From Erysipelotrichaceae bacterium (GTDB taxonomy: Bacteria > Bacillota_I > Bacilli_A > Erysipelotrichales > Erysipelotrichaceae): a DNA stretch of 64,000 nucleotides. The notes under the pieces are model-generated. The model did not search any database. It was not told the origin of the DNA and was given only the letters and a program-made list of their open reading frames with translations. The stretch lies in contig JAIKXJ010000063.1 of assembly GCA_024684175.1 (NCBI GenBank), forward strand, positions 186,001 to 250,000, given 5' to 3'. Position 1 is the first letter of the stretch, and each line of letters starts with the position of its first letter. Of this stretch, positions 50,528 through 62,906 are shown piece after piece. The position numbers were made by a program, and so were the translations under genes.

Positions 50528-50764
50528 CTATAGTATGTGAAGAAATGCCATTCCGATGAATACGATCAACAGCAGCAGCAGAGTCACGATCGGAAGGATC
50601 GTAACGATCCCCGAGATCATCATTGCCAGCATATCTCCCTTTTCCATGATATCTTCGGGAGAAACTTCATAGCCTTTATTTTGGCTCTGACGGGACTCTC
50701 TTTTTTCTTTCTGTTCGAGCTGCCACTTTTTTGCGCGGTCGTATTTGTCTTTGAACATCATCAT
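50528..50764 (-). CDS. Small membrane protein at end of opp operon
   Basis: 78 residues: a charged N-terminal half (FKDKYDRAKKWQLEQKEKRE) and one C-terminal membrane helix (about 50-76). Overlaps the oppF stop by four bases, so it is co-translated with the importer. No family recognised; could be an accessory or regulator of the ABC complex. Confidence 0.7.
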   Translation of the reverse strand: MMMFKDKYDRAKKWQLEQKEKRESRQSQNKGYEVSPEDIMEKGDMLAMMISGIVTILPIVTLLLLLIVFIGMAFLHIL

Positions 50765-52272
50765 TGTTTCTTATCGTTTTCGATCAGCGGATGATGGCAG
50801 GCAACGAAGTGATCCTTGCCGATCTCACGCCATTCAGGAACGACCTGTTTGCAGATCTCCGTGCAATACTGGCATCGGGTGTGGAACTTACAGCCGGCCG
50901 GCGGATTGACAGGCGACGGGATATCACCTTCCAAAATATGCAGTTCCTTCTGGCCGTCAGGATCCGTTGTCGGGATCGCATTGATCAGCGCCAGCGTATA
51001 AGGATGGACCGGATTTTTGAAGATCTCTTCCGACTGCGCCAGTTCGACCATGTTGCCCAGATACATGACGCCGATACGGTCGGAAATATATTTGACGACC
51101 GATAAGTCATGCGTGATGAACAAATATGTCAGATCCTGCTTTTCACGCAGATCCTGCAGCAGGTTGATGATCTGTGACTGAATGGAAACATCCAATGCCG
51201 AGACCGCTTCGTCGCAGACGACGAATTTCGGATTCACAGCGAGCGCTCTGGCGATGGAGATACGCTGTCTCTGACCGCCGGAGAACTGGTGAGGGAAACG
51301 ATGCAGGAAGTAAGCCTGCAAGCCGCAGTCATCCATGACCTTCAGGATATACTCCTGCATACGCGGAGAGTTCTTTCCGAAGATATTGTGTGCCATCAGA
51401 CCTTCGGCAATGATCTGGCCGATGGTCAGTCTCGGGTTGAGTGAAGAATACGGATCCTGGAAGACGATCTGCAGATCTCTCCTCAGAAGACGCATTTCAC
51501 TGTAATTCAGTCTTGCCAGGTCGATACCGTCGTCGAGCATCTCATCATACTTCTTGAATTCTTCGTTCTCGAGGTATGGTCTTCTGAGCTCTTCGATCTC
51601 TTCCTTGATCTTCGAGAGCTGAACATTATAAGAATCGATCTCTTTGTTCAGATTCTCGATCGACTTGTCAACGGAATCCGTCTTCTTTTCGTCCGCCAGC
51701 AAGTCATCTCTTTTTGCGTTGAGTTCCGCAAGCTTTTCAACAGCCTCACGTCTCTTCAAAGCGACTGCATAATCCTTCTCATAGACCGGAGCGATCTTGG
51801 AAAAATCATCCAGGATATAAAGACCGCCGATCAGGTTGCAGATATCGAGCAGATCATCGTTCGCTTTTTTCTTGGCTGCGTCGAGTGCCGCGTGTTTGGC
51901 ATACTGCTGCTCAATCGGCAGGGAATCGTATTCGCTCTGCAGTTTTTCGTATTCGGCAAGTGCTTTTTTCTGTTCCTGTTTCAGTCTGGAAAGTTTTTTG
52001 ATCGTATCGATATAGTATTTTGGAGCGATATCATCCAAAGTCTTTCCATAATACATCGTACGGCCGTCGGTCTGTTTGTACAGCTGCAGCAGAGTCCTGC
52101 CGAACGTCGATTTGCCGCAGCCCGATTCACCGACCAGACCGAAGACTTCGCCTTCGTAGATGTCCAGATCGATACCGTCATTCGCTTTAACATAAAGACC
52201 CTTTTTCTTCAAAGGGAAGTATTGCTTCAGATTGCGGATACGGAGTAATACCTTCTTATTTGTTTGTGACAT
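50761..52272 (-). CDS. oppF: Oligopeptide ABC ATPase OppF with coiled-coil insert
   Basis: 503 residues, versus about 310-330 for usual OppF. Walker A GESGCGKST at 48-56, Q-loop FQDPYSSLNP at 271-280, signature FSGGQRQRISIARAL, Walker B FVVCDEAVSALDVS and the C-terminal zinc-like CKFHTRCQYC motif. Residues about 81-255 are an insert rich in Lys/Glu/Leu with heptads (KKLSRLKQEQKKALAEYEKL; KSIENLNKEIDSYNVQLSKI) predicted to form a coiled coil, placed between the Walker A lobe and the Q-loop. ATP motifs are intact, so it should be functional. Overlaps oppD by 17 bases. Confidence 0.93.
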   Translation of the reverse strand: MSQTNKKVLLRIRNLKQYFPLKKKGLYVKANDGIDLDIYEGEVFGLVGESGCGKSTFGRTLLQLYKQTDGRTMYYGKTLDDIAPKYYIDTIKKLSRLKQEQKKALAEYEKLQSEYDSLPIEQQYAKHAALDAAKKKANDDLLDICNLIGGLYILDDFSKIAPVYEKDYAVALKRREAVEKLAELNAKRDDLLADEKKTDSVDKSIENLNKEIDSYNVQLSKIKEEIEELRRPYLENEEFKKYDEMLDDGIDLARLNYSEMRLLRRDLQIVFQDPYSSLNPRLTIGQIIAEGLMAHNIFGKNSPRMQEYILKVMDDCGLQAYFLHRFPHQFSGGQRQRISIARALAVNPKFVVCDEAVSALDVSIQSQIINLLQDLREKQDLTYLFITHDLSVVKYISDRIGVMYLGNMVELAQSEEIFKNPVHPYTLALINAIPTTDPDGQKELHILEGDIPSPVNPPAGCKFHTRCQYCTEICKQVVPEWREIGKDHFVACHHPLIENDKKQ

Positions 52273-53251
52273 GACGGTCCTCCTTCCTCGGATAGAAGCA
52301 ACGGATCTGTTGTTCTTCGTTCACCTGAACAAGATCCGGTTCTTCTTCCAGGCAGCGTTGCGTGCAATACTTGCACCGAGGTGCGAATTTGCAGCCTTTC
52401 GGCAGATCCAAAGGATGCGGAACGGCGCCTGGGATCGATTCCAGTCTTGTATTGGCATCCGTATCCAGACGCGGAATGGAATTGAACAGTCCTTCCGTGT
52501 ATGGATGCATATATTCCGGATCGGAGAAGATCGTCCTTCGCGGAGACATCTCAACGATCTGGCCGCAGTACATGACCGCGACATCGTCCGCCATCTGGTT
52601 GATGACGCCTAAGTCGTGCGTGATGAATAAGATCGAAGTTCCGAGCTCCCTCTTGAGTTCGTTCATCAGATAAAGGATCTGCGCCTGGATCGTGACATCA
52701 AGCGCGGTCGTCGGCTCATCGGCGATCAGCAGTTTCGGTTTGCAAGCCAAAGCCATGGCGATCATGACACGCTGGCGCATACCGCCGGAAAGCTGATGCG
52801 GATACTGTTTCGCAACGACTTCCGGATTCGGGATCTTGACATCGGAAAGGATCTCGACGACTTTTGCCAAAGCTTCTTTTTCGCTCATGCCCTGGTGCAG
52901 CATATAGGTCTCGGCGATCTGCTTTTCGATCGAAAAGACCGGATTCAAAGAAGTCATCGGTTCCTGGAAAATGACGGAGATCTCGTTGCCGCGGATCTTA
53001 TACATGTCACTCAGGGACATGTTGATCAAATCCTGTCCGTCAAACGTGACCTCACCGGAATCGATATAGCCGTTGGAATCCAACAGCTTGATGATGCTCA
53101 TTGCAGAAACGGACTTGCCCGAACCGGATTCACCGACCAGACCTAAAGTCTTTCCTGCGTCTACGGAATACGAAACGTCATTGACTGCTTTGACGATGCC
53201 TCTTTTTGTCGTAAAGAAGGTATGCAAATGTTTTACTTCTAATAGTGCCAT
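52256..53251 (-). CDS. oppD: Oligopeptide ABC ATPase OppD
   Basis: 331 residues, normal length. Walker [16 protein letters not shown]-loop [12 protein letters not shown], signature [15 protein letters not shown], Walker [14 protein letters not shown] and the C-terminal Cys cluster ([13 protein letters not shown]). No insert, in contrast to OppF. ATG follows AGGAGAG, eight bases after oppC. Confidence 0.96.
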
Positions 53252-53259
53252 ATTCTCTC

Positions 53260-55083
53260 CTACCTTCCTAACGATTTCGGGTCGACGGCATCTCGTACGG
53301 CGTCACCGACCAGGTTGATGCAGATCGTACAGATACCGAAAATAAATGATACGAATACCCATTGCCACCAGTACTGCTGGATGACGATGGAGTTGTTAGC
53401 GCCATTGAGCATATTGCCCCAAGTCGGCGTCGGAGGTGAAATACCAAAGCCCAGGTAACTCAGGGAAGACTCCGTAAGCATACAAGTCGCAAAGCCGAGT
53501 GTCGCTTCGACCAACAGGATGGATAAGACGTTCGGAAGGATGTGCTTGAAGATGATGCTTCCCTCTTTGACGCCCATCGCCTGCGCCGCCAATACGAATT
53601 CTTTTTCTCTTTCCGCGAGGATCTGTGCTCTGACCAGACGGCAGATACCGGTCCACGAAAGCAAGCCTAAGACGACCATGATCAGGTACATCCTCAGCTG
53701 TACATCGATCGTAGAACCGATGATCGCCGACAGCAGCAGTGCAAACGGAAGGAACGGCAGAGAACCGATGACTTCCGCAACTCTCATGATGAGCAAGTCG
53801 ACGGTGCCGCCGAAATATCCTGCCAGACCGCCGGCGATGATACCGATGAGTAAGGCGATGACTTCGGCGATGAAACCGACGGTCATCGTGGTCTTACCGC
53901 CGTGGACGAGCCTTGTCAGAATGTCTCTTCCTAAATTATCGGTACCTAATGTATATCCTTTCAGACCCCAAGTCAGGATCTTTCCTTCCTTGGTGACTGC
54001 ATAATTCTGAAAATAACCGGAGAAGATCGTATCGATCTGTGCGTTGTTGACGGCATCCGGGACTTTGGTCTCGCCGTGCGAATTGTTGCCCCAGGAAACG
54101 ACGTCGCCGTTCTCCAGAAGAGCCGAATAATGCCATCTGCCGCCGTAGATCTCGACCGGCTTGGAACTGAGTTCCGGAGCGTTGTTTTCGCCATGCGTTC
54201 CGTTGCCCCAGAAGATCAGAGTGCCGTCATCTTTTAAGCCGCACATCGTATCGGAAGATGCGGCGATATCGACGACATGAGATTTCAGCGTCGAAGGAAC
54301 ATTGGAGAACGCATTGTTCTTGACGCCGCCGTAAACGACAGAGCCGTTATCCAGCAGCAGACAGTAATAGGAATTGGTGATAGCGATCTTTTTGATATGT
54401 CCCTGATATTCACTATGGACAGAGAGGTCCGACATGTTTTCATTTCCCCAAAGATACGCTTCGCCATCCGCCGTGACTGCACCGGAGATCTGATAACCGG
54501 TCTCCAGCTGAACGATCTCTTTCGTGCCTCTGGTCCGGGAAGGAACCAGTTCGCTCGGGACATTGTCCTGTCCTAAACGGGTGTTGCCCCAGACATAGAC
54601 GTTGTTGTCTTCGTCGACTGCCGTGATATGGTCATAGCCGCAGGAAAGCATGACGATCTTTGCGCGCTGCACTTCCATCGGCACATTGGCAACATCGATG
54701 ACTTTGGTGATCTTGGTGTGACCCCAGGTATAAACTTTTCCGTCAGTATCGACACCGGCACCGAAAGTCGGGCCGTTGGAGATATCCGCAACATGGCCTT
54801 CAAGTTCCTTCGGGAACGCCATCATCGACAAGCCCGGAGGCGTGTTGGTCTGCGTATTGTCGGATTCACCGAGATTGATCGGTACGAACAGCGGAATGAT
54901 CGAAACGATCATAAGGATCACAAAGAAGCCGATCAGACCGGTCATACCCAAACGGTTATGTAAAAAGTTGTCGAGCATCATTTTGGAAGGAGACTGGATC
55001 TGTTCTTCTAAAAGGATATCAACTTCTTCATTTCGATTGCCAAACAGTTTTTGGATCAAAGAAGGTTTTTTTCTTTCAGACAT
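53260..55083 (-). CDS. oppC: Oligopeptide permease OppC with RCC1-like propeller insert
   Basis: 607 residues, about twice normal. I prefer the second Met (MSERKKPS), seven bases after GGAG. TM1 is at about 48-68. From about 95 to 378 there are seven RCC1-type repeats, each with a V-x-x-WG-like strand: VYTWG, VYVWG, AYLWG, VVYGG, LIFWG, VVSWG and ILTWG, spaced 39-47 residues. The canonical OppC sequence then resumes at LGTDNLGRDILTRLVHGG, followed by five helices and the EAA loop. The insert lies in the first extracytoplasmic loop, so a seven-bladed propeller should face OppA. Confidence 0.93.
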   Translation of the reverse strand: MSERKKPSLIQKLFGNRNEEVDILLEEQIQSPSKMMLDNFLHNRLGMTGLIGFFVILMIVSIIPLFVPINLGESDNTQTNTPPGLSMMAFPKELEGHVADISNGPTFGAGVDTDGKVYTWGHTKITKVIDVANVPMEVQRAKIVMLSCGYDHITAVDEDNNVYVWGNTRLGQDNVPSELVPSRTRGTKEIVQLETGYQISGAVTADGEAYLWGNENMSDLSVHSEYQGHIKKIAITNSYYCLLLDNGSVVYGGVKNNAFSNVPSTLKSHVVDIAASSDTMCGLKDDGTLIFWGNGTHGENNAPELSSKPVEIYGGRWHYSALLENGDVVSWGNNSHGETKVPDAVNNAQIDTIFSGYFQNYAVTKEGKILTWGLKGYTLGTDNLGRDILTRLVHGGKTTMTVGFIAEVIALLIGIIAGGLAGYFGGTVDLLIMRVAEVIGSLPFLPFALLLSAIIGSTIDVQLRMYLIMVVLGLLSWTGICRLVRAQILAEREKEFVLAAQAMGVKEGSIIFKHILPNVLSILLVEATLGFATCMLTESSLSYLGFGISPPTPTWGNMLNGANNSIVIQQYWWQWVFVSFIFGICTICINLVGDAVRDAVDPKSLGR

Positions 55084-55097
55084 CTTCATTCTCCTTT

Positions 55098-56114
55098 CTA
55101 CTTATCGATCCTGACACGCGGATCAACGAAACCGTAACTGAGGTCAGTGATCAAAGCACCGACAAGAGATACGACGGTATAGAACATCTGCATCGCCAAA
55201 GCCAGATCGTAGTCGTGGTTGTTCAATGCTTTGATATATAAGGAACCCATACCGTTAAGACCGAAAGTATTTTCAATGATCAGGGAACCGGAGAAGATTC
55301 CTAAGAACCAACCGATGACGATGCCGATGATCGGCAGCAGCGCATTTCTCCAGGCATGGGAATAAATGACTGTCTTTTCGTGAACACCTTTCGCTCTGGC
55401 GGTCTTGATATGATCCATCGACAAAGCATCGATCATTGCGGCTCTGACATATCTGGTCATGCCGCCTAACGATCCGAAGGTCATGACCATCAGAGGGAGG
55501 CACAGATAATACAATTTATCGATATAATACTTCAGACCTGTATAAGTCGCACCCGGCGTACCGATACCGGAGACCGGGAACCATCTGAGAATAACGGCAA
55601 AAACATAGATGAAAAGGAGCGCAATGATATAAGTTGGGATCGAATAGCCGACGATCGTCAGGACCTGTGTAAAGTTATCAAACTTCCCTCCTTTATGCAC
55701 CGCACAATAGATACCTAACGGTATTGTTATGCCTAATGCAAGTATCGTGGCAAAGATATTGATGAAGATCGTATTTACCGCCGGATCTTTGACGACAGTG
55801 ACGATATCTTTTTTGAAATACCTGGAATAACCGAAATAACCTTCCAGGATACCGTTCAGATTGCCTTTTCTGTCTTTCGCAAGTCCCATCCATCTGGCAT
55901 AGCGGATGACGATCGGATCATCGAGACCCATCTCCTCACGAAGAGCCTGATATCTGGCTTCATATTCTGCCGGTTTCAAAGATGTCTTGATGCCTTCCAG
56001 TTCCAATCTTGCAGGATCCTGCGGAATGAGATTATAAAGACAATACATCAAAAAAGAGACCGTAAAGAATACGACCACCATGTATCCTAATCTTTTTAAA
56101 ATATATTTTGTCAT
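55098..56114 (-). CDS. oppB: Oligopeptide permease OppB
   Basis: 338 residues, six helices; YILKRLGYMVVVFFTVSFLM at the start, LNNHDYDLALAMQMFYTV and FVDPRVRI at the end are the OppB/DppB pattern. Loop 1 is moderately long (about 90 residues) but has no propeller. Follows oppA after a hairpin; AAGGGGC precedes ATG. Confidence 0.95.
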   Translation of the reverse strand: MTKYILKRLGYMVVVFFTVSFLMYCLYNLIPQDPARLELEGIKTSLKPAEYEARYQALREEMGLDDPIVIRYARWMGLAKDRKGNLNGILEGYFGYSRYFKKDIVTVVKDPAVNTIFINIFATILALGITIPLGIYCAVHKGGKFDNFTQVLTIVGYSIPTYIIALLFIYVFAVILRWFPVSGIGTPGATYTGLKYYIDKLYYLCLPLMVMTFGSLGGMTRYVRAAMIDALSMDHIKTARAKGVHEKTVIYSHAWRNALLPIIGIVIGWFLGIFSGSLIIENTFGLNGMGSLYIKALNNHDYDLALAMQMFYTVVSLVGALITDLSYGFVDPRVRIDK

Positions 56115-56250: not shown

Positions 56251-58182
56251 TTACTCAACAGTTGCGTAAACAACAGCCTGCTGGAAGTCAAACAGAGAGT
56301 TGCACTCTAAGTTGTTGATCTTCGCATTCATTGCATCGTAATAAACATTTGAATAAAGAGGTACTGCCGGTAAATAGCTGTTCCATTCCTCGATGAATTT
56401 TACCCAAGTATCGAGGTAAGCCTTATCATCACCAGCTTCAACACCGTAGACCATATCCATAGACAGCTTGTCCAGAGTCGGGTTGTCGACTGAGAAGAAC
56501 GTGTTGTAACCCAGAGCTAAGAGTTCAGGATCAACAGTGTAGCTGTAAGACTGGTCATATAAAGCTGTGAAGTTTGTAGCCAAGTTGTACATGCCGTAAG
56601 TCTTGACACCGTACTTCGGATCAACGGTAGAATCACGGTAGTAGTAGTTCAGCAAGTCAGCAAATGACATGATGTTCTGGTTGATCTCCATGCCGGCTTC
56701 CTTAGTCTGATCACCGTTAGCAAGCATAACTGCTAAGAGTTCGGAGACAGAGTTGCCTTCAGAAGAAGACCATTCGATGTGTAACGGCATTAAGATTCTG
56801 CCGTCAGCCAGTGTTACGTTGTAAGCGTAGTCGCCAGCCTGTTCAGGAGTGACTTCCTTGTAACGTACTGCACCGGAACCATCGACATAGTCCGTACCAT
56901 CAGCATTCAGAGTCCAGCCACCGGCCTTGAGTTCTTCAACAGCAGACTCAACAGAGTAAGTGTAAGAATTCAGAGTCGAAGCTAAAATATCCTTGGAATC
57001 CTTGTACATCCACATAGCCAATCCGTAAGGACCATCAACGACGGAGCCGAAGCCCTGGCAGAATGTGTTAGCGAATTCGTTTCTGTCTAACAGATATGCA
57101 ACAGCATGTCTGACTTCCGGGAACTGCGTCGGACCGAAGTCGCACTGGAAGAAGATAGCGCCGTAACCATTTCTTTCATAATGAACAGTCTTGAACTTGC
57201 CTGTGTCTTCCATATCAAGAGCTCTCTGAACTTCGGAACCATCTGTCAATGCAGATAAGAAGTCGATAGCACCTGTGTCGAGCTGATCCATCATCGTTTC
57301 CTGGACAGCCTTGACGATTAAGATCTTTTCAACAGAAGGTTTCTGACCTTCGAAGTTGCCCGCATAGTTCGGGTTGATCGTCAATGTAGCAGTTAAGGAA
57401 CCTAAATCCAAGCTTTCCAGCTGGTAAGGGCCTGCAGAAACTCTGCCTTCGTAGATCGTTCTGGAAGCATCGAGTTCGCTTGCGACCAGAGAACCACCAT
57501 CGAGGTAAGCGCCTTCGCCGTCATCCTTGACTGTCAGTGCTGCAGAAGCATACATCGGCAGATACAGAGGAGACAAGCTTGCATAAGAAGCATCGAAGTA
57601 ATAAGGCAGGAAGTGAGTTTCAGGATCTGTCGGGTCATCCTTATTGATCGTGATCGAATAAGTGTGATCGTCTAAGAGTCTGATACCGGAGATGTAATTG
57701 ACTTCACCGTTCTGGTATTCCAAAGCACCCTTGACAGAGTTCGGAGTGACCTTACCGCCAGCTTCTTTCAGAGCCGGAGAATAAGCGACCAATGCATAAG
57801 CAACATAGTCAGCAGCCGTGATCGGCTCGCCGTTGTTGTACTTCAGGCCGTCTTTGATACCGACTGTGAAAGTCTTCGTGCCATCTTCGTTGACAACGGA
57901 AGTAACACCTGTTGTAACGGACTGGTTCTCAACAAGTTCACCACCCTGGTTCGTCGTGATGACACCATAGTCATTGATCAGTTCTCTGACTGTAGCGTCA
58001 GAAGCGTTGTTGCCCCACCAAGCATTACCTAAGTCACCGTTAAGTTCAGTCGTTGAACCATAGATGATCTGGTTAGTAACTTCTGCGTTACCGCTTGGCT
58101 GTTCGCCGCTTTCGTTACCGCCGCCATTAGTGCAGCCGGCTAATAACAGAAGGGCGAGCAATAAAGCAAATAATTTTTTCAT
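56251..58182 (-). CDS. oppA: Oligopeptide-binding lipoprotein OppA
   Basis: 643 residues; lipobox LLAGC with C17 and a Gly-rich linker. SBP_bac_5 (peptide-binding type II) fold: FTVGIKDGLKYNNGEPITAA and YLLDRNEFANTF are recognisable. Somewhat longer than typical OppA (about 540). Peptide preference cannot be deduced. ATG follows AAGGGAGAAA. Confidence 0.93.
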   Translation of the reverse strand: MKKLFALLLALLLLAGCTNGGGNESGEQPSGNAEVTNQIIYGSTTELNGDLGNAWWGNNASDATVRELINDYGVITTNQGGELVENQSVTTGVTSVVNEDGTKTFTVGIKDGLKYNNGEPITAADYVAYALVAYSPALKEAGGKVTPNSVKGALEYQNGEVNYISGIRLLDDHTYSITINKDDPTDPETHFLPYYFDASYASLSPLYLPMYASAALTVKDDGEGAYLDGGSLVASELDASRTIYEGRVSAGPYQLESLDLGSLTATLTINPNYAGNFEGQKPSVEKILIVKAVQETMMDQLDTGAIDFLSALTDGSEVQRALDMEDTGKFKTVHYERNGYGAIFFQCDFGPTQFPEVRHAVAYLLDRNEFANTFCQGFGSVVDGPYGLAMWMYKDSKDILASTLNSYTYSVESAVEELKAGGWTLNADGTDYVDGSGAVRYKEVTPEQAGDYAYNVTLADGRILMPLHIEWSSSEGNSVSELLAVMLANGDQTKEAGMEINQNIMSFADLLNYYYRDSTVDPKYGVKTYGMYNLATNFTALYDQSYSYTVDPELLALGYNTFFSVDNPTLDKLSMDMVYGVEAGDDKAYLDTWVKFIEEWNSYLPAVPLYSNVYYDAMNAKINNLECNSLFDFQQAVVYATVE

Positions 58183-58381: not shown

Positions 58382-59650
58382 TTACGAGATCTTCAATCCT
58401 TCAAAGATCAAATACTTCGGGCCTTTGTAACGGGAAGTCTGTCCTTCTTCCTTGGAAAACTTCACGTTCTTCATATCTTCATAGATATTGCCGGCGATCG
58501 AGAAACCGGTCAAAGGGATATATTTCTTTCCGTCGAAGTATCTGGCAAGCCGGACTTCCCCGCCCCAGTATCCGGAATCGGATTCCAGCTGCGGCGAAGA
58601 GAAGTTCTCGATGATCAGGTGCGGTTTCTTCTTGTATTCGATACCTTCCGCCTTGATCTGTGCCACCGGCAGATTGCCGGAGATCTTTTCTTCTTTATTG
58701 TAGTAGCCGAACTGTATATCGCCGTAGGTATTCTTTACGACACCGTTGCCGATCAGTTTCACCGGGCTCAAAAGTGTGCCATGGGAATCAAACTTCCTGG
58801 ATGCGCTGCAGCCGGCGATCGAAGGCTTCATGATCAGATCGAATGACGTATCGGAGACCTTGTCGCCTTTGCCATAATGGTTGTCATGCATGAATGCGGA
58901 ACGGTAATTCAGATCGGAAGCAAAACAACGGACGATGGATTCCAGCATATCGTTCTTGACTAAAACGTTCAGATCTTCCGGAAGTTTGACATCTTTCAAT
59001 GTTTTGGCAGCCGAACGCGCCTTGGCAAGATTCAATATCTCATCGATCTCTTCAGTGATCTTCTTATAATCTTCCTTATTGGATTCAAAGAATTTATAAA
59101 GTTCAAATTCTTCTTTCTTGTTGGACCATGTCGGGATGCATTCCACTTCGATCTTGAAACTGTTCGCAACATGATCGACGCCATTGGAATTGATGAACTC
59201 TTCCTTGAATTCCGACACGAAGATCTCGGTCGAATTGATCCAGCCATTCTTATATACATCTGCCTTAAAGACAGCCTTGGCGACCTTGGAAGCGATCTTG
59301 TTGAGATCTTTCTTATCCGTATTGATATCCTTCAGATTTTCTTTCTTTCCGGCAAGCGGATAGTAAGGATTCTTTGCCGCCTTGGCTTTGGTCACGGCCT
59401 TGGACAGTTTGGAAGCCAAAGACTTCGGGTCATCGGCTGCCGTAACGACGACCGTGGAAACGCCGGTCGACTTCGAATCGGACACATAGACCTTGACCGA
59501 TACCGTCTTCACTTTGACGGCACGGTTGATCTCAAGATGATCGAGAACATAGAACAGTTCCCGGGAATCCTTATCGAGGATGCTTAATTCGTAAGCACTG
59601 ATGCTTTTGTTTGCTTTCAGACAAGTCAATATCTCAGATCTCTTCATCAT
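58382..59650 (-). CDS. tldE: TldE/PmbA-like subunit
   Basis: 422 residues of the TldD/PmbA fold without an HExxxH motif, as expected for the inactive partner. Conserved-looking C-terminal elements: FGYYNKEEKISG, SPQLESDSGYWGGEVRLARY and PLTGFSIAGNIYEDM. In TldD-TldE heterodimers this subunit completes the chamber that degrades unfolded or modified peptides. Start overlaps tldD stop (ATGA). Confidence 0.9.
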   Translation of the reverse strand: MMKRSEILTCLKANKSISAYELSILDKDSRELFYVLDHLEINRAVKVKTVSVKVYVSDSKSTGVSTVVVTAADDPKSLASKLSKAVTKAKAAKNPYYPLAGKKENLKDINTDKKDLNKIASKVAKAVFKADVYKNGWINSTEIFVSEFKEEFINSNGVDHVANSFKIEVECIPTWSNKKEEFELYKFFESNKEDYKKITEEIDEILNLAKARSAAKTLKDVKLPEDLNVLVKNDMLESIVRCFASDLNYRSAFMHDNHYGKGDKVSDTSFDLIMKPSIAGCSASRKFDSHGTLLSPVKLIGNGVVKNTYGDIQFGYYNKEEKISGNLPVAQIKAEGIEYKKKPHLIIENFSSPQLESDSGYWGGEVRLARYFDGKKYIPLTGFSIAGNIYEDMKNVKFSKEEGQTSRYKGPKYLIFEGLKIS

Positions 59651-61029
59651 CCCAATTTCGCCTCCGCTTTCAGATAAGGTCCGCCGTCAGAAACGTAGAC
59701 CCATTCCTTATGGCCTTTGCCGCACATGCCGGATCCGTGGACCGTCACTTCATCCGAGACCATTGAGATCGAACTGAGCAAGTCGATGACATAGCCGGAA
59801 ATGACGACCGGTGCGATCATCTCGCCGGTGAATTCTCCGTCCTTGATCTCCAGGCCGTAGGAAGCCGTGCACTGGATCTGCCAGTTCTTCGGATCTTCCA
59901 TGCCGTTGTTGGTCTGACAAAGGAGATATCCGTGTTTCACGGATTTGATCATATCCTCATATTTATCTTTGCCCGGGCCGAACCATGTGTTGGTCATGCG
60001 GGTATAGACTTTACGCTGGTAATCCTGTCTCCTGCCGTTTCCCGTCGGCTCACTGCCGAGCTCCATGGCACTCAGACTGTCGGAGATGCCTGTCTGCAAG
60101 ATGCCCTTTTTGATGATCTGGGTATTGTGAGCTTCGACGCCGTCGTCATCGAAGAAATAAGATGCAGCCGAAAGACAGCTGGCAGCACCGTCGTACATAT
60201 CGACCAGCGGAGAAGCGACATACTTACCGACATAATCGATCGCTTTCGCTCTGTTTTTGACGAACATATCCATCTCCACGCCATGGCCGAACGCTTCATG
60301 GGCGATCAGCCCGGAGATCGAAGGATCGGTGATGATCGTATATTTGCCCGGCTTGACCGGCTTGGCATCCAGCATCTTCACGGCGATGTTCAAAACATCG
60401 TCTGCTTCCTTTGCGAATTTGTCCAGCGCCAGATCAGAATCCGCTTCGCCTTGCGCAGAGTAATTGGACTTGATGTTGTCTCCGTCTCTGACCACCGTCA
60501 TCAACATCACGTTGATCCAGTCATATTTCTGAGACAGACACTTTTTCTCAGAAACGAAGATCTTGGATATCTGACGCTTCACGTATGCCGTATTGACATT
60601 GATCAGACGGCTTTCTTTCTTGTGCAGCTCATCCTTGACAGCGGAAAGCTTATCGATGATCTGCTTATTGGACAGTTTGGAAGGATCTTCCCTCAGGAAA
60701 TCCTCAACATGCGGCTGTTCTTCCAGCATCCTGACTTTAAAATCTTTGGAATAGACTTCATCGAGCTTCACGGCATTTTTGACAGATGCAGCCTTGAGAC
60801 CGCGGATATCGTTACAGGAATACTCGCTGTAACGGCCGTCCTTATAGACCTTGATGACGAAACCGCACTCGTTGTCCACTTCATCGAGCGAATTGATCCT
60901 CGTCGAGACCGAGATCCGCTTGGTATTGACACAAGTACCCAGGATCGACACATAGTCGAACGACTTTCTTAAGTCTTCGACCAGCTTTTTGGCATCGGGG
61001 ATCCTTGATCTCAGATATTTATCAAGCAT
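59647..61029 (-). CDS. tldD: TldD zinc metalloprotease
   Basis: 460 residues from ATG 61029 (MLDKYLRSRIPD), with GGAGGAGTAA upstream; an earlier Met lacks such a site and lies inside the ABC-F gene. Catalytic HExxxH motif is HEAFGHGVEMD, with further ligands in CGKGHKEWV-like sequence near the C-terminus. Works with TldE. Related pairs mature peptide antibiotics or clear peptides; no RiPP genes are in view. Confidence 0.93.
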   Translation of the reverse strand: MLDKYLRSRIPDAKKLVEDLRKSFDYVSILGTCVNTKRISVSTRINSLDEVDNECGFVIKVYKDGRYSEYSCNDIRGLKAASVKNAVKLDEVYSKDFKVRMLEEQPHVEDFLREDPSKLSNKQIIDKLSAVKDELHKKESRLINVNTAYVKRQISKIFVSEKKCLSQKYDWINVMLMTVVRDGDNIKSNYSAQGEADSDLALDKFAKEADDVLNIAVKMLDAKPVKPGKYTIITDPSISGLIAHEAFGHGVEMDMFVKNRAKAIDYVGKYVASPLVDMYDGAASCLSAASYFFDDDGVEAHNTQIIKKGILQTGISDSLSAMELGSEPTGNGRRQDYQRKVYTRMTNTWFGPGKDKYEDMIKSVKHGYLLCQTNNGMEDPKNWQIQCTASYGLEIKDGEFTGEMIAPVVISGYVIDLLSSISMVSDEVTVHGSGMCGKGHKEWVYVSDGGPYLKAEAKLG

Positions 61030-61040
61030 TTTTACTCCTC

Positions 61041-62906
61041 CTACTTGTTCTTTTCTTCTTCCTGCAGCATCGCTTCTTCCCATTTCTCCTCCAAGGCATG
61101 GATCTGATTGTGGATCTCATCGATCTCATCGTCGAGTTCCGCCATCTTCTTCATGTCCTGGTAGTATTCCGGTTCGTAGCGAAGTGCCCGCTTGTCTTCC
61201 AATATGTCTTCCATCAAAGAGATCTCGTTCTCCAGACGCTTCAGATTGTATTTCGGCTTCTGTTTGATCTCTTTCAACGGTTTTTCATTCTTTTCCTGTT
61301 TAGGCTTGCTTGCCTCTTCCTTGACTTTGACATCGATATAATCCTTGTAGCCGTCAGGATAATAGGTCACCTTGTCTTCATCGATGACCAGGCAGGATGT
61401 CGCGATCTTTCTGATGAAATATCGGTCATGGGATACGAACAGGATCGTCCCATCATATTCGTTGAGGGCATTCTCCAAAGCTTCCTTAGAGATGATGTCA
61501 AGGTGATTAGTCGGCTCATCCAGGATGAGGAAGTTGGCTTTTTTCATCATCAGCTTGGCCAAAGACAGCCGGACTTTCTCCCCGCCCGATAAGACATTGA
61601 CCTCCTTGAAGACTTCATCGGAAGTGAACAGGAAGGCACCTAAAACGGACCGCACCTTATACATGTCAAGATCGGGGTAATCGTTCCAAAGTTCCTCCAG
61701 GACGGTATTGCCGCTATGGAAGTTCGCCAGGTTCTGATCGAAGTATCCGATCTGGATCTGATGTCCCAGCATCATGTAACCGCCTAAAGGTTCGACTTCA
61801 CCGATGATCGACTTCAGCAGTGTCGACTTTCCGGTGCCGTTATCGCCCATGACACAGATCCTTTCCCCTCTCTGGATCTCCAGGCTCACTTCGGCTAAGA
61901 GTTTGTCATAGCCGACTTGAAAATGGTCGAGACTCAGCACGTTCTTGCCGCCCCGGACACCGCAGGTGAACTTCGCCTTGAATGCCTTAGTGTCGGCTTT
62001 CTTGGGATCATCGATCTTATCCATCCGCTCAAGATATTTGATCTTGGATTGCGCGAAGGCGGCTTTATTCTTCTTGTAACGGAACTTTTCGATCAATTCC
62101 TCAAGACGCTTGATGTCCTTCTGCTGTCTGCGGTAGGCTGCTTCCTGGCGGATCAGATCGTTCTTCTTCTGTTCGACGAAACTGGAATAATTGCCGGCAT
62201 ACCGTTTGATACCGCCGTATTCGAGCTCATAGACCACGTTGACGCTGCGGTCAAGGAAGACACGGTCGTGAGAAACGATGACCATCGCTTTCTTATATTT
62301 GGCCAGATAATTCTCCAGCCATTCGATCGTCGAAAGATCGAGATGATTGGTCGGCTCATCCAACAGCAGCAGATCCGGTTTGGACAAAAGGAGGCCGGCA
62401 AAGGCGATCTTGGTCTTTTCGCCTCCCGAGAACGATGAGACTTTGCGGTCCAGATCCGCTTCCTTGAAACCGAAGCCGTTCAGCACCGACAGCATCTCCG
62501 AATGATAAGTATAGCCTCCGGCATACTTGTAGTCTTCTTCCAGCTTCGCGTATTTTTCGATCAGTTTCTCGTCATGATCGCTCTCCATCTGCTTTGAGAT
62601 CTCGTCGATCTGTTTCTCAAGATCCTTGATCTGACGGAAAACGCCGTCAAAGACTTCGCGCACGGTCTCTTCCGATAAGGCAAGCGCGTTCTGTTTCAGA
62701 TAAGAGATTGTCGTCTTATTGGCTTTGATCAGCTGACCGGAAGAAAGCTCACATTCTCCCGTGAGCACTTTTAAAAGAGTGGTCTTGCCACTCCCGTTGC
62801 GGCCTACCAGAGCGATCCTTTCGTTCTCGTTCACGGTAAAGTCGATATTTTCAAATACATCATTGGCACCGAAAAAAACGGTGCCGTCTGAAATCTGTAC
62901 GATCAT
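61041..62906 (-). CDS. ABC-F family ATPase
   Basis: 621 residues with two ATPase domains and no membrane part: GRNGSGKTTLLK ... SGGEKTKIA ... LDEPTNHLDLS, and GDNGTGKSTLLK ... SGGEKVRLS ... LDEPTNHLDI. A C-terminal helical extension from about 515 (KQKPKYNLKRLENEISLMED) suggests coiled coil. ABC-F proteins act on the ribosomal E site as translation factors or protect against antibiotics; the type here is unclear. Starts three bases after asnS. Confidence 0.93.
   Translation of the reverse strand: MIVQISDGTVFFGANDVFENIDFTVNENERIALVGRNGSGKTTLLKVLTGECELSSGQLIKANKTTISYLKQNALALSEETVREVFDGVFRQIKDLEKQIDEISKQMESDHDEKLIEKYAKLEEDYKYAGGYTYHSEMLSVLNGFGFKEADLDRKVSSFSGGEKTKIAFAGLLLSKPDLLLLDEPTNHLDLSTIEWLENYLAKYKKAMVIVSHDRVFLDRSVNVVYELEYGGIKRYAGNYSSFVEQKKNDLIRQEAAYRRQQKDIKRLEELIEKFRYKKNKAAFAQSKIKYLERMDKIDDPKKADTKAFKAKFTCGVRGGKNVLSLDHFQVGYDKLLAEVSLEIQRGERICVMGDNGTGKSTLLKSIIGEVEPLGGYMMLGHQIQIGYFDQNLANFHSGNTVLEELWNDYPDLDMYKVRSVLGAFLFTSDEVFKEVNVLSGGEKVRLSLAKLMMKKANFLILDEPTNHLDIISKEALENALNEYDGTILFVSHDRYFIRKIATSCLVIDEDKVTYYPDGYKDYIDVKVKEEASKPKQEKNEKPLKEIKQKPKYNLKRLENEISLMEDILEDKRALRYEPEYYQDMKKMAELDDEIDEIHNQIHALEEKWEEAMLQEEEKNK

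Follow-up and report, generated by a model that had tools for sequence, protein, structure and literature searches.

Peptide importers supply nutrients to many anaerobes of the gut and rumen. To our knowledge, the way in which the membrane-tethered substrate-binding protein (SBP) of Gram-positive bacteria finds and engages its permease has been poorly seen. BLIP-II and RCC1 bind proteins through loops. In the solved E. coli OppBCDF (8z21), DppBCDF (8z1v) and M. tuberculosis OppABCD (8j5q), the OppC or DppC chain has 287-302 residues and no propeller, which agrees with the normal length of about 300 residues given for OppC in the earlier note. According to PMC3150292, MalF-P2 comprises residues 91-271 (about 180 residues) of a permease subunit, and a portion of it contacts MalE. 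The extract of PMC6121496 describes BLIP-II as built mainly of three-stranded blades and as binding beta-lactamases at picomolar strength. In the extract of the propeller survey PMC9218822, BLIP-II is a secreted binder and RCC1 is an interactor.

In the window (the whole stretch of 64,000 nucleotides that was analysed), one oppC-type gene encodes a permease with a propeller between its first two transmembrane helices. Its features are as follows.

53260..55083, minus strand: oppC-type permease gene with a propeller insert (open reading frame, Pfam, conservation of Met3, ribosome-binding site)
54886..54954, minus strand: first transmembrane helix, TM1, residues 46-68 (DSSP helix of the model, hydropathy peak at residues 51-69)
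53959..54798, minus strand: seven-bladed propeller of RCC1/BLIP-II type, residues 98-377 (Pfam, predicted structure, superposition)
53263..53958, minus strand: permease core, residues 378-609, running from the LGTDNLGRD segment as far as the C-terminus (BPD_transp_1, alignment to E. coli OppC 8z21)

Positions 53260..55089 of the minus strand form one uninterrupted frame of 609 codons, with the first ATG at 55089. GGAG lies seven bases upstream of the second ATG (55083), whose Met (Met3) is conserved in at least 90% of the 94 sequences aligned. For both of these reasons 53260..55083 (607 aa), the extent given in the earlier note, is kept as the better coding sequence. Residue numbers follow the 609-aa frame.

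The insert is flanked by OppC_N (residues 33-85, 28.1 bits against a cut-off of 23.9) and BPD_transp_1 (residues 416-605, 98.6 bits against 26.4). Two RCC1 profiles exceed their Pfam cut-offs in the insert, as had been expected from its letters: PF13540 RCC1_2 (E 2.3e-30, 104 bits, cut-off 22) and PF00415 RCC1 (23.6 bits, cut-off 21.7). Such a match to the repeat family lies well outside what chance would give. The RCC1-like domain profile PF25390 WD40_RLD has an E value of 2.9e-37, yet at 129.3 bits it falls under its own cut-off of 150. The best NCBIfam match, Opp4C, is likewise under its curated cut-off (300.4 bits against 350), and the protein is not filed as Opp4C. E. coli OppC aligns over 278 residues within the model range 31-604, which leaves about 296 extra residues; the earlier note had estimated about 290 between TM1 and LGTDNLGRD. 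The seven WG-type strands that it had read are present, with WG or GG at residues 122, 167, 214, 254, 294, 333 and 374 (spacings of 45, 47, 40, 40, 39 and 41 residues). In structure superposition, the propeller OppC shares the core fold of solved OppC and DppC.

The predicted structure has seven blades over residues 100-375, with pLDDT of 91-97 in 10-residue blocks and 80 in one block. By DSSP of the model, six blades have three strands, and in blade 4 the third strand is only two residues long. Identity between blades is 12-38%, so the blades did not arise by a recent tandem duplication. Among solved structures, bacterial BLIP-II is the closest, at about 26% identity. The description of the insert as an RCC1-like seven-bladed propeller therefore stands as to profile and confident model, but its nearest solved relative is BLIP-II and not eukaryotic RCC1. 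The propeller is placed in the first extracytoplasmic loop of OppC. Judged by topology and by the fold of OppC, the N-terminus would be cytoplasmic, and so the propeller would lie outside the cell membrane, beside the landing site of the SBP.

The propeller OppC is a large family and is not confined to this genome. In a search of 5.8 billion proteins, 4033 of the 7997 candidates scored have E <= 1e-3, and the best 120 of these 4033 all contain RCC1 and BPD_transp_1 and have 584-622 aa. When the query is L038, a relative from Tissierellia, 2683 of 7994 candidates reach the same threshold. The best 120 of these also all contain RCC1; one (428 aa) has no permease domain and covers 70% of the query. 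Guggenheimella bovis, Fusibacter sp. JL298sf-3, Tissierella creatinini, Proteiniborus and Solobacterium are among the matches listed. In genome contigs, 44 of 50 loci match over almost their full length at 46-94% identity. These loci come from Erysipelotrichaceae, Clostridia and one Tissierellia, together with some MAGs that are labelled Chloroflexi or Anaerolineaceae; by their record titles, many are from ruminants, and one is a strain record (NK3D112, L012).

Genome scans score few candidates per genome, so carrier counts are lower bounds: at least 9 of 299 sampled genomes in the phylum of G007 (G007 counted), at least 1 of 201 in the phylum of G005 (G005 itself) and at least 25 of 145 in the family of G003 (G003 and G001 counted; 26 matches, two covering only part of the query). 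All eight genomes examined have exactly one propeller OppC, and seven of them also have an ordinary OppC; G006 shows none. In the G003 family scan, G611 is the only genome with two propeller OppC. RCC1_2 matches occur in 10 of 10 carrier genomes, mostly in this OppC gene, and in none of 14 control genomes. RCC1-repeat frames outside OppC are seen at G004:C66:16996-17850, G110:C33:9235-9450, G003:C17:37452-37526 and G001:C1:16327-16413. It is possible that these frames are kin or donors of the propeller.

The operon in the window also encodes an SBP, a second permease and two ATPases:

55098..56114, minus strand: OppB-type permease, 338 aa (BPD_transp_1; best model Opp4B, 250 bits, cut-off 450)
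56251..58182, minus strand: OppA-type SBP, 643 aa (SBP_bac_5, E 1.3e-33; nearest solved structure 9p48, E 6.5e-31)
52256..53251, minus strand: OppD-type ATPase, 331 aa (best OppD model 393 bits, cut-off 575)
50761..52272, minus strand: OppF-type ATPase with an insert, 503 aa (best OppF model 368 bits, cut-off 540)
51541..51996, minus strand: OppF insert, about 150 residues (93-244), between Walker A and the Q-loop

By family, this operon would import peptides. The SBP is probably a lipoprotein (LPAM_1 17.7 bits, under its cut-off of 20), and the OppF insert is probably helical, judging by composition. In all, 72 distinct operons were assembled from the window and from 43, 8 and 20 loci of three collections. 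L105, a repeat of L038, was excluded from this set, as was L041, in which the propeller OppC is in two frames of 291 and 347 aa. All five genes A-B-C-D-F are present in 60 of the 72, and 11 of the 12 incomplete operons are cut by a contig end. In L044, upstream sequence is available and there is no SBP match. In the diverged operons L111, L114, L115 and L127, the gene order is A-B-C-F-D instead of A-B-C-D-F.

The propeller co-occurs with the OppF insert, a pairing for which the earlier note had proposed a survey: an insert of 103-169 residues is present in 67 of 69 propeller operons examined. L038 and L123 are the two whose OppF has none. At L099:7228-8782, OppF occupies two frames, of 101 and of 375 aa, which may reflect a frameshift; its insert is counted from the larger. 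Among the best 60 rows, the OppF of L038 is 64-73% identical to insert-bearing OppF over the shared part and 51-54% identical to the ordinary OppF of L106-L109; with L104 it is 55% identical, in an alignment that runs into the L104 insert. Being closer to insert-bearing than to ordinary OppF, it belongs to the propeller-operon family and has probably lost its insert. The OppC propeller and the OppF insert are thus linked but separable.

In the maximum-likelihood tree of the permease core, the 52 propeller rows form one clade against 30 other OppC, with support of 100/98. The gain of the propeller is one change on this tree and in 100% of 200 bootstrap trees. Because every sampled propeller permease falls in this clade, one insertion is the simplest history; the 30 non-propeller rows were fetched by similarity, which leaves room for a second gain elsewhere. 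It is virtually certain that these genes represent an SBP-OppB-OppC-OppD-OppF importer whose OppC carries a BLIP-II/RCC1-type propeller of single origin between TM1 and TM2. The propeller importer is real and widespread, a known importer type with a new outer domain and apparently one origin. Its permeases are present in public databases, where they are named as ABC transporter permease subunit, peptide/nickel permease or appC-type permease, but they are not discussed in the open-licence literature as far as searched. Among open-licence PMC papers, none was found on an RCC1 domain or propeller in an Opp permease. In the available parts of PMC10928387, PMC9218822, PMC10710014, PMC2394750 and PMC4158809, mentions of RCC1 concern other proteins; in that of PMC3482391, RCC1 is a strain name.

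The role of the propeller is less firmly placed than its existence. The best explanation as a whole, which joins the propeller importer architecture to a role in docking the SBP, is given a probability of about 0.5. The role itself, docking or holding the SBP, is the leading but still tentative reading, held at slightly under even odds. It is favoured by the MalF-P2 precedent, by the binding activity of BLIP-II, by the place of the propeller beside the pore mouth and by the near-constant SBP gene. The propeller would act as a built-in receptor whose loops on the membrane-distal face catch and orient the peptide-loaded SBP. The SBP might thereby be kept over the OppBC pore during cycling of the ATPases, and the propeller would do the job of MalF-P2 with another fold.

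Conservation was compared between two faces of the propeller, assigned from the strand order of the model and not from coordinates. Face X consists of the B-C turns, and face Y of the A-B loops and the loops after WG. Both the entry and the exit of the chain are at face X, which is therefore taken to be nearer the membrane; face Y would be distal. In 94 rows, mean JS is higher on face Y than on face X, both without G and P (0.510 vs 0.435, p 0.0015) and with them (0.512 vs 0.465, p 0.020), although the p values of all face comparisons are rough since alignment positions are not independent.

The operons were also divided into a main subfamily (47) and a diverged one (25), a split made after the diverged members were seen to be about 40% identical to the window protein. 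For this comparison the loops were one residue wider than in the 94-row test. In the main subfamily, identity reaches 95% or more at 16 of 70 positions on face Y and at 9 of 101 on face X. Among these, the polar or aromatic ones number 12 of 70 on face Y and 0 of 101 on face X (p 1.2e-5): T108, D153, H154, R171, Q174, Q200, N216, D221, E301, R318, H320 and Q361. We take H154, H320 and Q174 to be ordinary RCC1 consensus, and the pairs D153-R171 and E301-R318 might form salt bridges within the propeller. In the diverged subfamily, the corresponding counts are 2 of 70 on face Y and 2 of 101 on face X, and the polar patch is absent. The main subfamily thus has a specific polar face that the diverged one has not kept. 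No position is fixed in both subfamilies with a different residue.

For docking of the SBP, these counts point in two directions. The conserved polar or aromatic positions on one face favour it in the main subfamily only, and the loss of the patch in the 25 diverged operons stands against it. The SBP frames, mostly of about 580-720 aa with no obvious enlargement, also count against it. Distance covariation (mirror tree) was measured in three samples, as the partial correlation between the distances of the propeller and those of the SBP. The partial r is -0.06 in 42 operons, +0.15 in 60 and +0.24 in 32 dereplicated operons, a value that is always under that between SBP and OppB (0.53-0.57) and whose sign shifts with the sample, so that it counts for neither side. 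The strongest partner of the propeller is the OppC core (0.38) in the 42 operons and OppD in the later samples (0.43 and 0.47); neither is predicted as top partner by a docking model.

A second, unrelated domain occupies the same loop in other importers. Matches confined to the core in the genome scans include OppC of 530-585 aa with an insert of about 200-250 residues that has no Pfam match.

L088:460-2214, L090:1495-3249, L091:517-2268 and L069:676-2265: OppC with an alpha/beta-repeat insert

Like the propeller OppC, these proteins have the insert at the same site and form a large family, but the insert is unrelated to the propeller in sequence and predicted fold. With such an OppC as query, all 8000 candidates scored have E <= 1e-3; the best 120 of these have 576-612 aa, and the named ones are from Brevefilum, Anaerolineaceae or other Chloroflexota. 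L069 is from the phylum of L038. Four alpha/beta repeats make up the insert in the model (pLDDT 76, pTM 0.49, insert blocks 79-92), and a whole-chain search of the PDB returns the permease core and weak matches. On the permease-core tree, the alpha/beta-insert OppC form a separate clade. The SBPs of the two such operons scanned have 866 and 766 aa (SBP_bac_5), OppD has 385-395 aa, and OppF has 324-349 aa without an insert. That a second, unrelated OppC-loop domain accompanies oversized SBPs favours docking in the propeller operons.

The two inserts also suggest a broader reading, which is doubtful. The first outer loop of OppC might be a general slot for receptor domains, filled at least twice: by the propeller in Bacillota and some rumen MAGs labelled Chloroflexi, and by the alpha/beta repeat mainly in Chloroflexota. 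The permease itself would then be a receptor for a partner or substrate. Propeller and OppF insert would perhaps couple outside events to ATPase control, in a two-sided, ligand-tuned importer.

A second substrate-recognition site is unlikely. The rim of the propeller would bind peptides, or one class of them, and pass them to the SBP or pore, or the propeller would act as a lid on the translocation path. The polar, charged face conserved in 47 operons would suit such a site, as would the direct run of the domain into the segment before TM2. Guggenheimella, Tissierella and Proteiniborus, among the carriers listed by name, are presumably peptide or amino-acid fermenters. Against this, an SBP gene belongs to the operon in every case where the contig extends far enough, except in L044. 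The loops of BLIP-II and RCC1 bind proteins, and the patch is lost in the diverged subfamily.

It is quite unlikely that the propeller ties the importer to a different partner on the cell surface (a cell wall polymer, a protease or a second lipoprotein) in a feeding complex. A domain that would lie outside the membrane is consistent with this, different faces in the two subfamilies would fit different partners, and PMC9218822 describes BLIP-II as a secreted binder and RCC1 as an interactor. Against it, no gene is constantly linked to the operon. Clustering of the ORFs of 44 loci, many of which end at contig ends, gives no constant extra neighbour; the largest cluster consists of antisense ORFs, and the next commonest is present in 8 of 44 loci. 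In the window, two TldE/TldD-like genes, the second with a HExxxH-type motif, lie directly upstream of the operon on the minus strand (58382-61083). TldE homologues are also upstream in L001, L002, L005 and L006, and TldD in L001, L002 and L005. Among the 44 loci, such genes are found upstream in the closest relatives only.

A rigid strut that binds no ligand, and that serves mainly to stabilise OppB/OppC or to raise the docking surface clear of the wall, is improbable. At 0.853, the mean distance of the propeller exceeds that of the OppC core (0.525) by a factor of about 1.6, though it is near that of the SBP (0.828), and the diverged subfamily lacks a conserved polar face. Both would fit a strut, whereas the polar residues that do not vary on one face across 47 operons, of which only the three named above are ordinary RCC1 consensus, would not.

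The idea that the frame joins two genes by an assembly or sequencing error is refuted by the 44 of 50 almost full-length matches, which include the strain record NK3D112, by matches in the named isolates Guggenheimella bovis, Fusibacter sp. JL298sf-3 and Tissierella creatinini, and by a domain order that is shared across the matches.

This conserved and confidently foldable outer domain is a removable module for the study of docking, selectivity and coupling. It is usually present once per genome, mostly beside ordinary OppC paralogues. It would also show a protein-binding propeller built permanently into a membrane pump, and it suggests that the TM1-TM2 loop of OppC is a site where domains can be added.

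Compared with known systems, the OppF of the propeller operon is long, with 503 residues against 334 positions in the E. coli-type model; the MMSYN1_0168 model, with 649 positions, indicates that long OppF occur elsewhere too. The RCC1-like domains of RCC1, UVR8 and HERC2 have the same repeat profile and closed seven-bladed fold as the OppC propeller, but they are eukaryotic, are in longer chains (mostly about 360-450 residues) and occur in other contexts. BLIP-II has mainly three-stranded blades, as the OppC propeller does. It is a secreted single domain, whereas the OppC propeller is held in a permease loop, and inhibition of beta-lactamase is not implied. MalF-P2 differs from the OppC propeller in fold and in the loop that holds it. 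Like the propeller, it is a large extracytoplasmic region inside a permease subunit.
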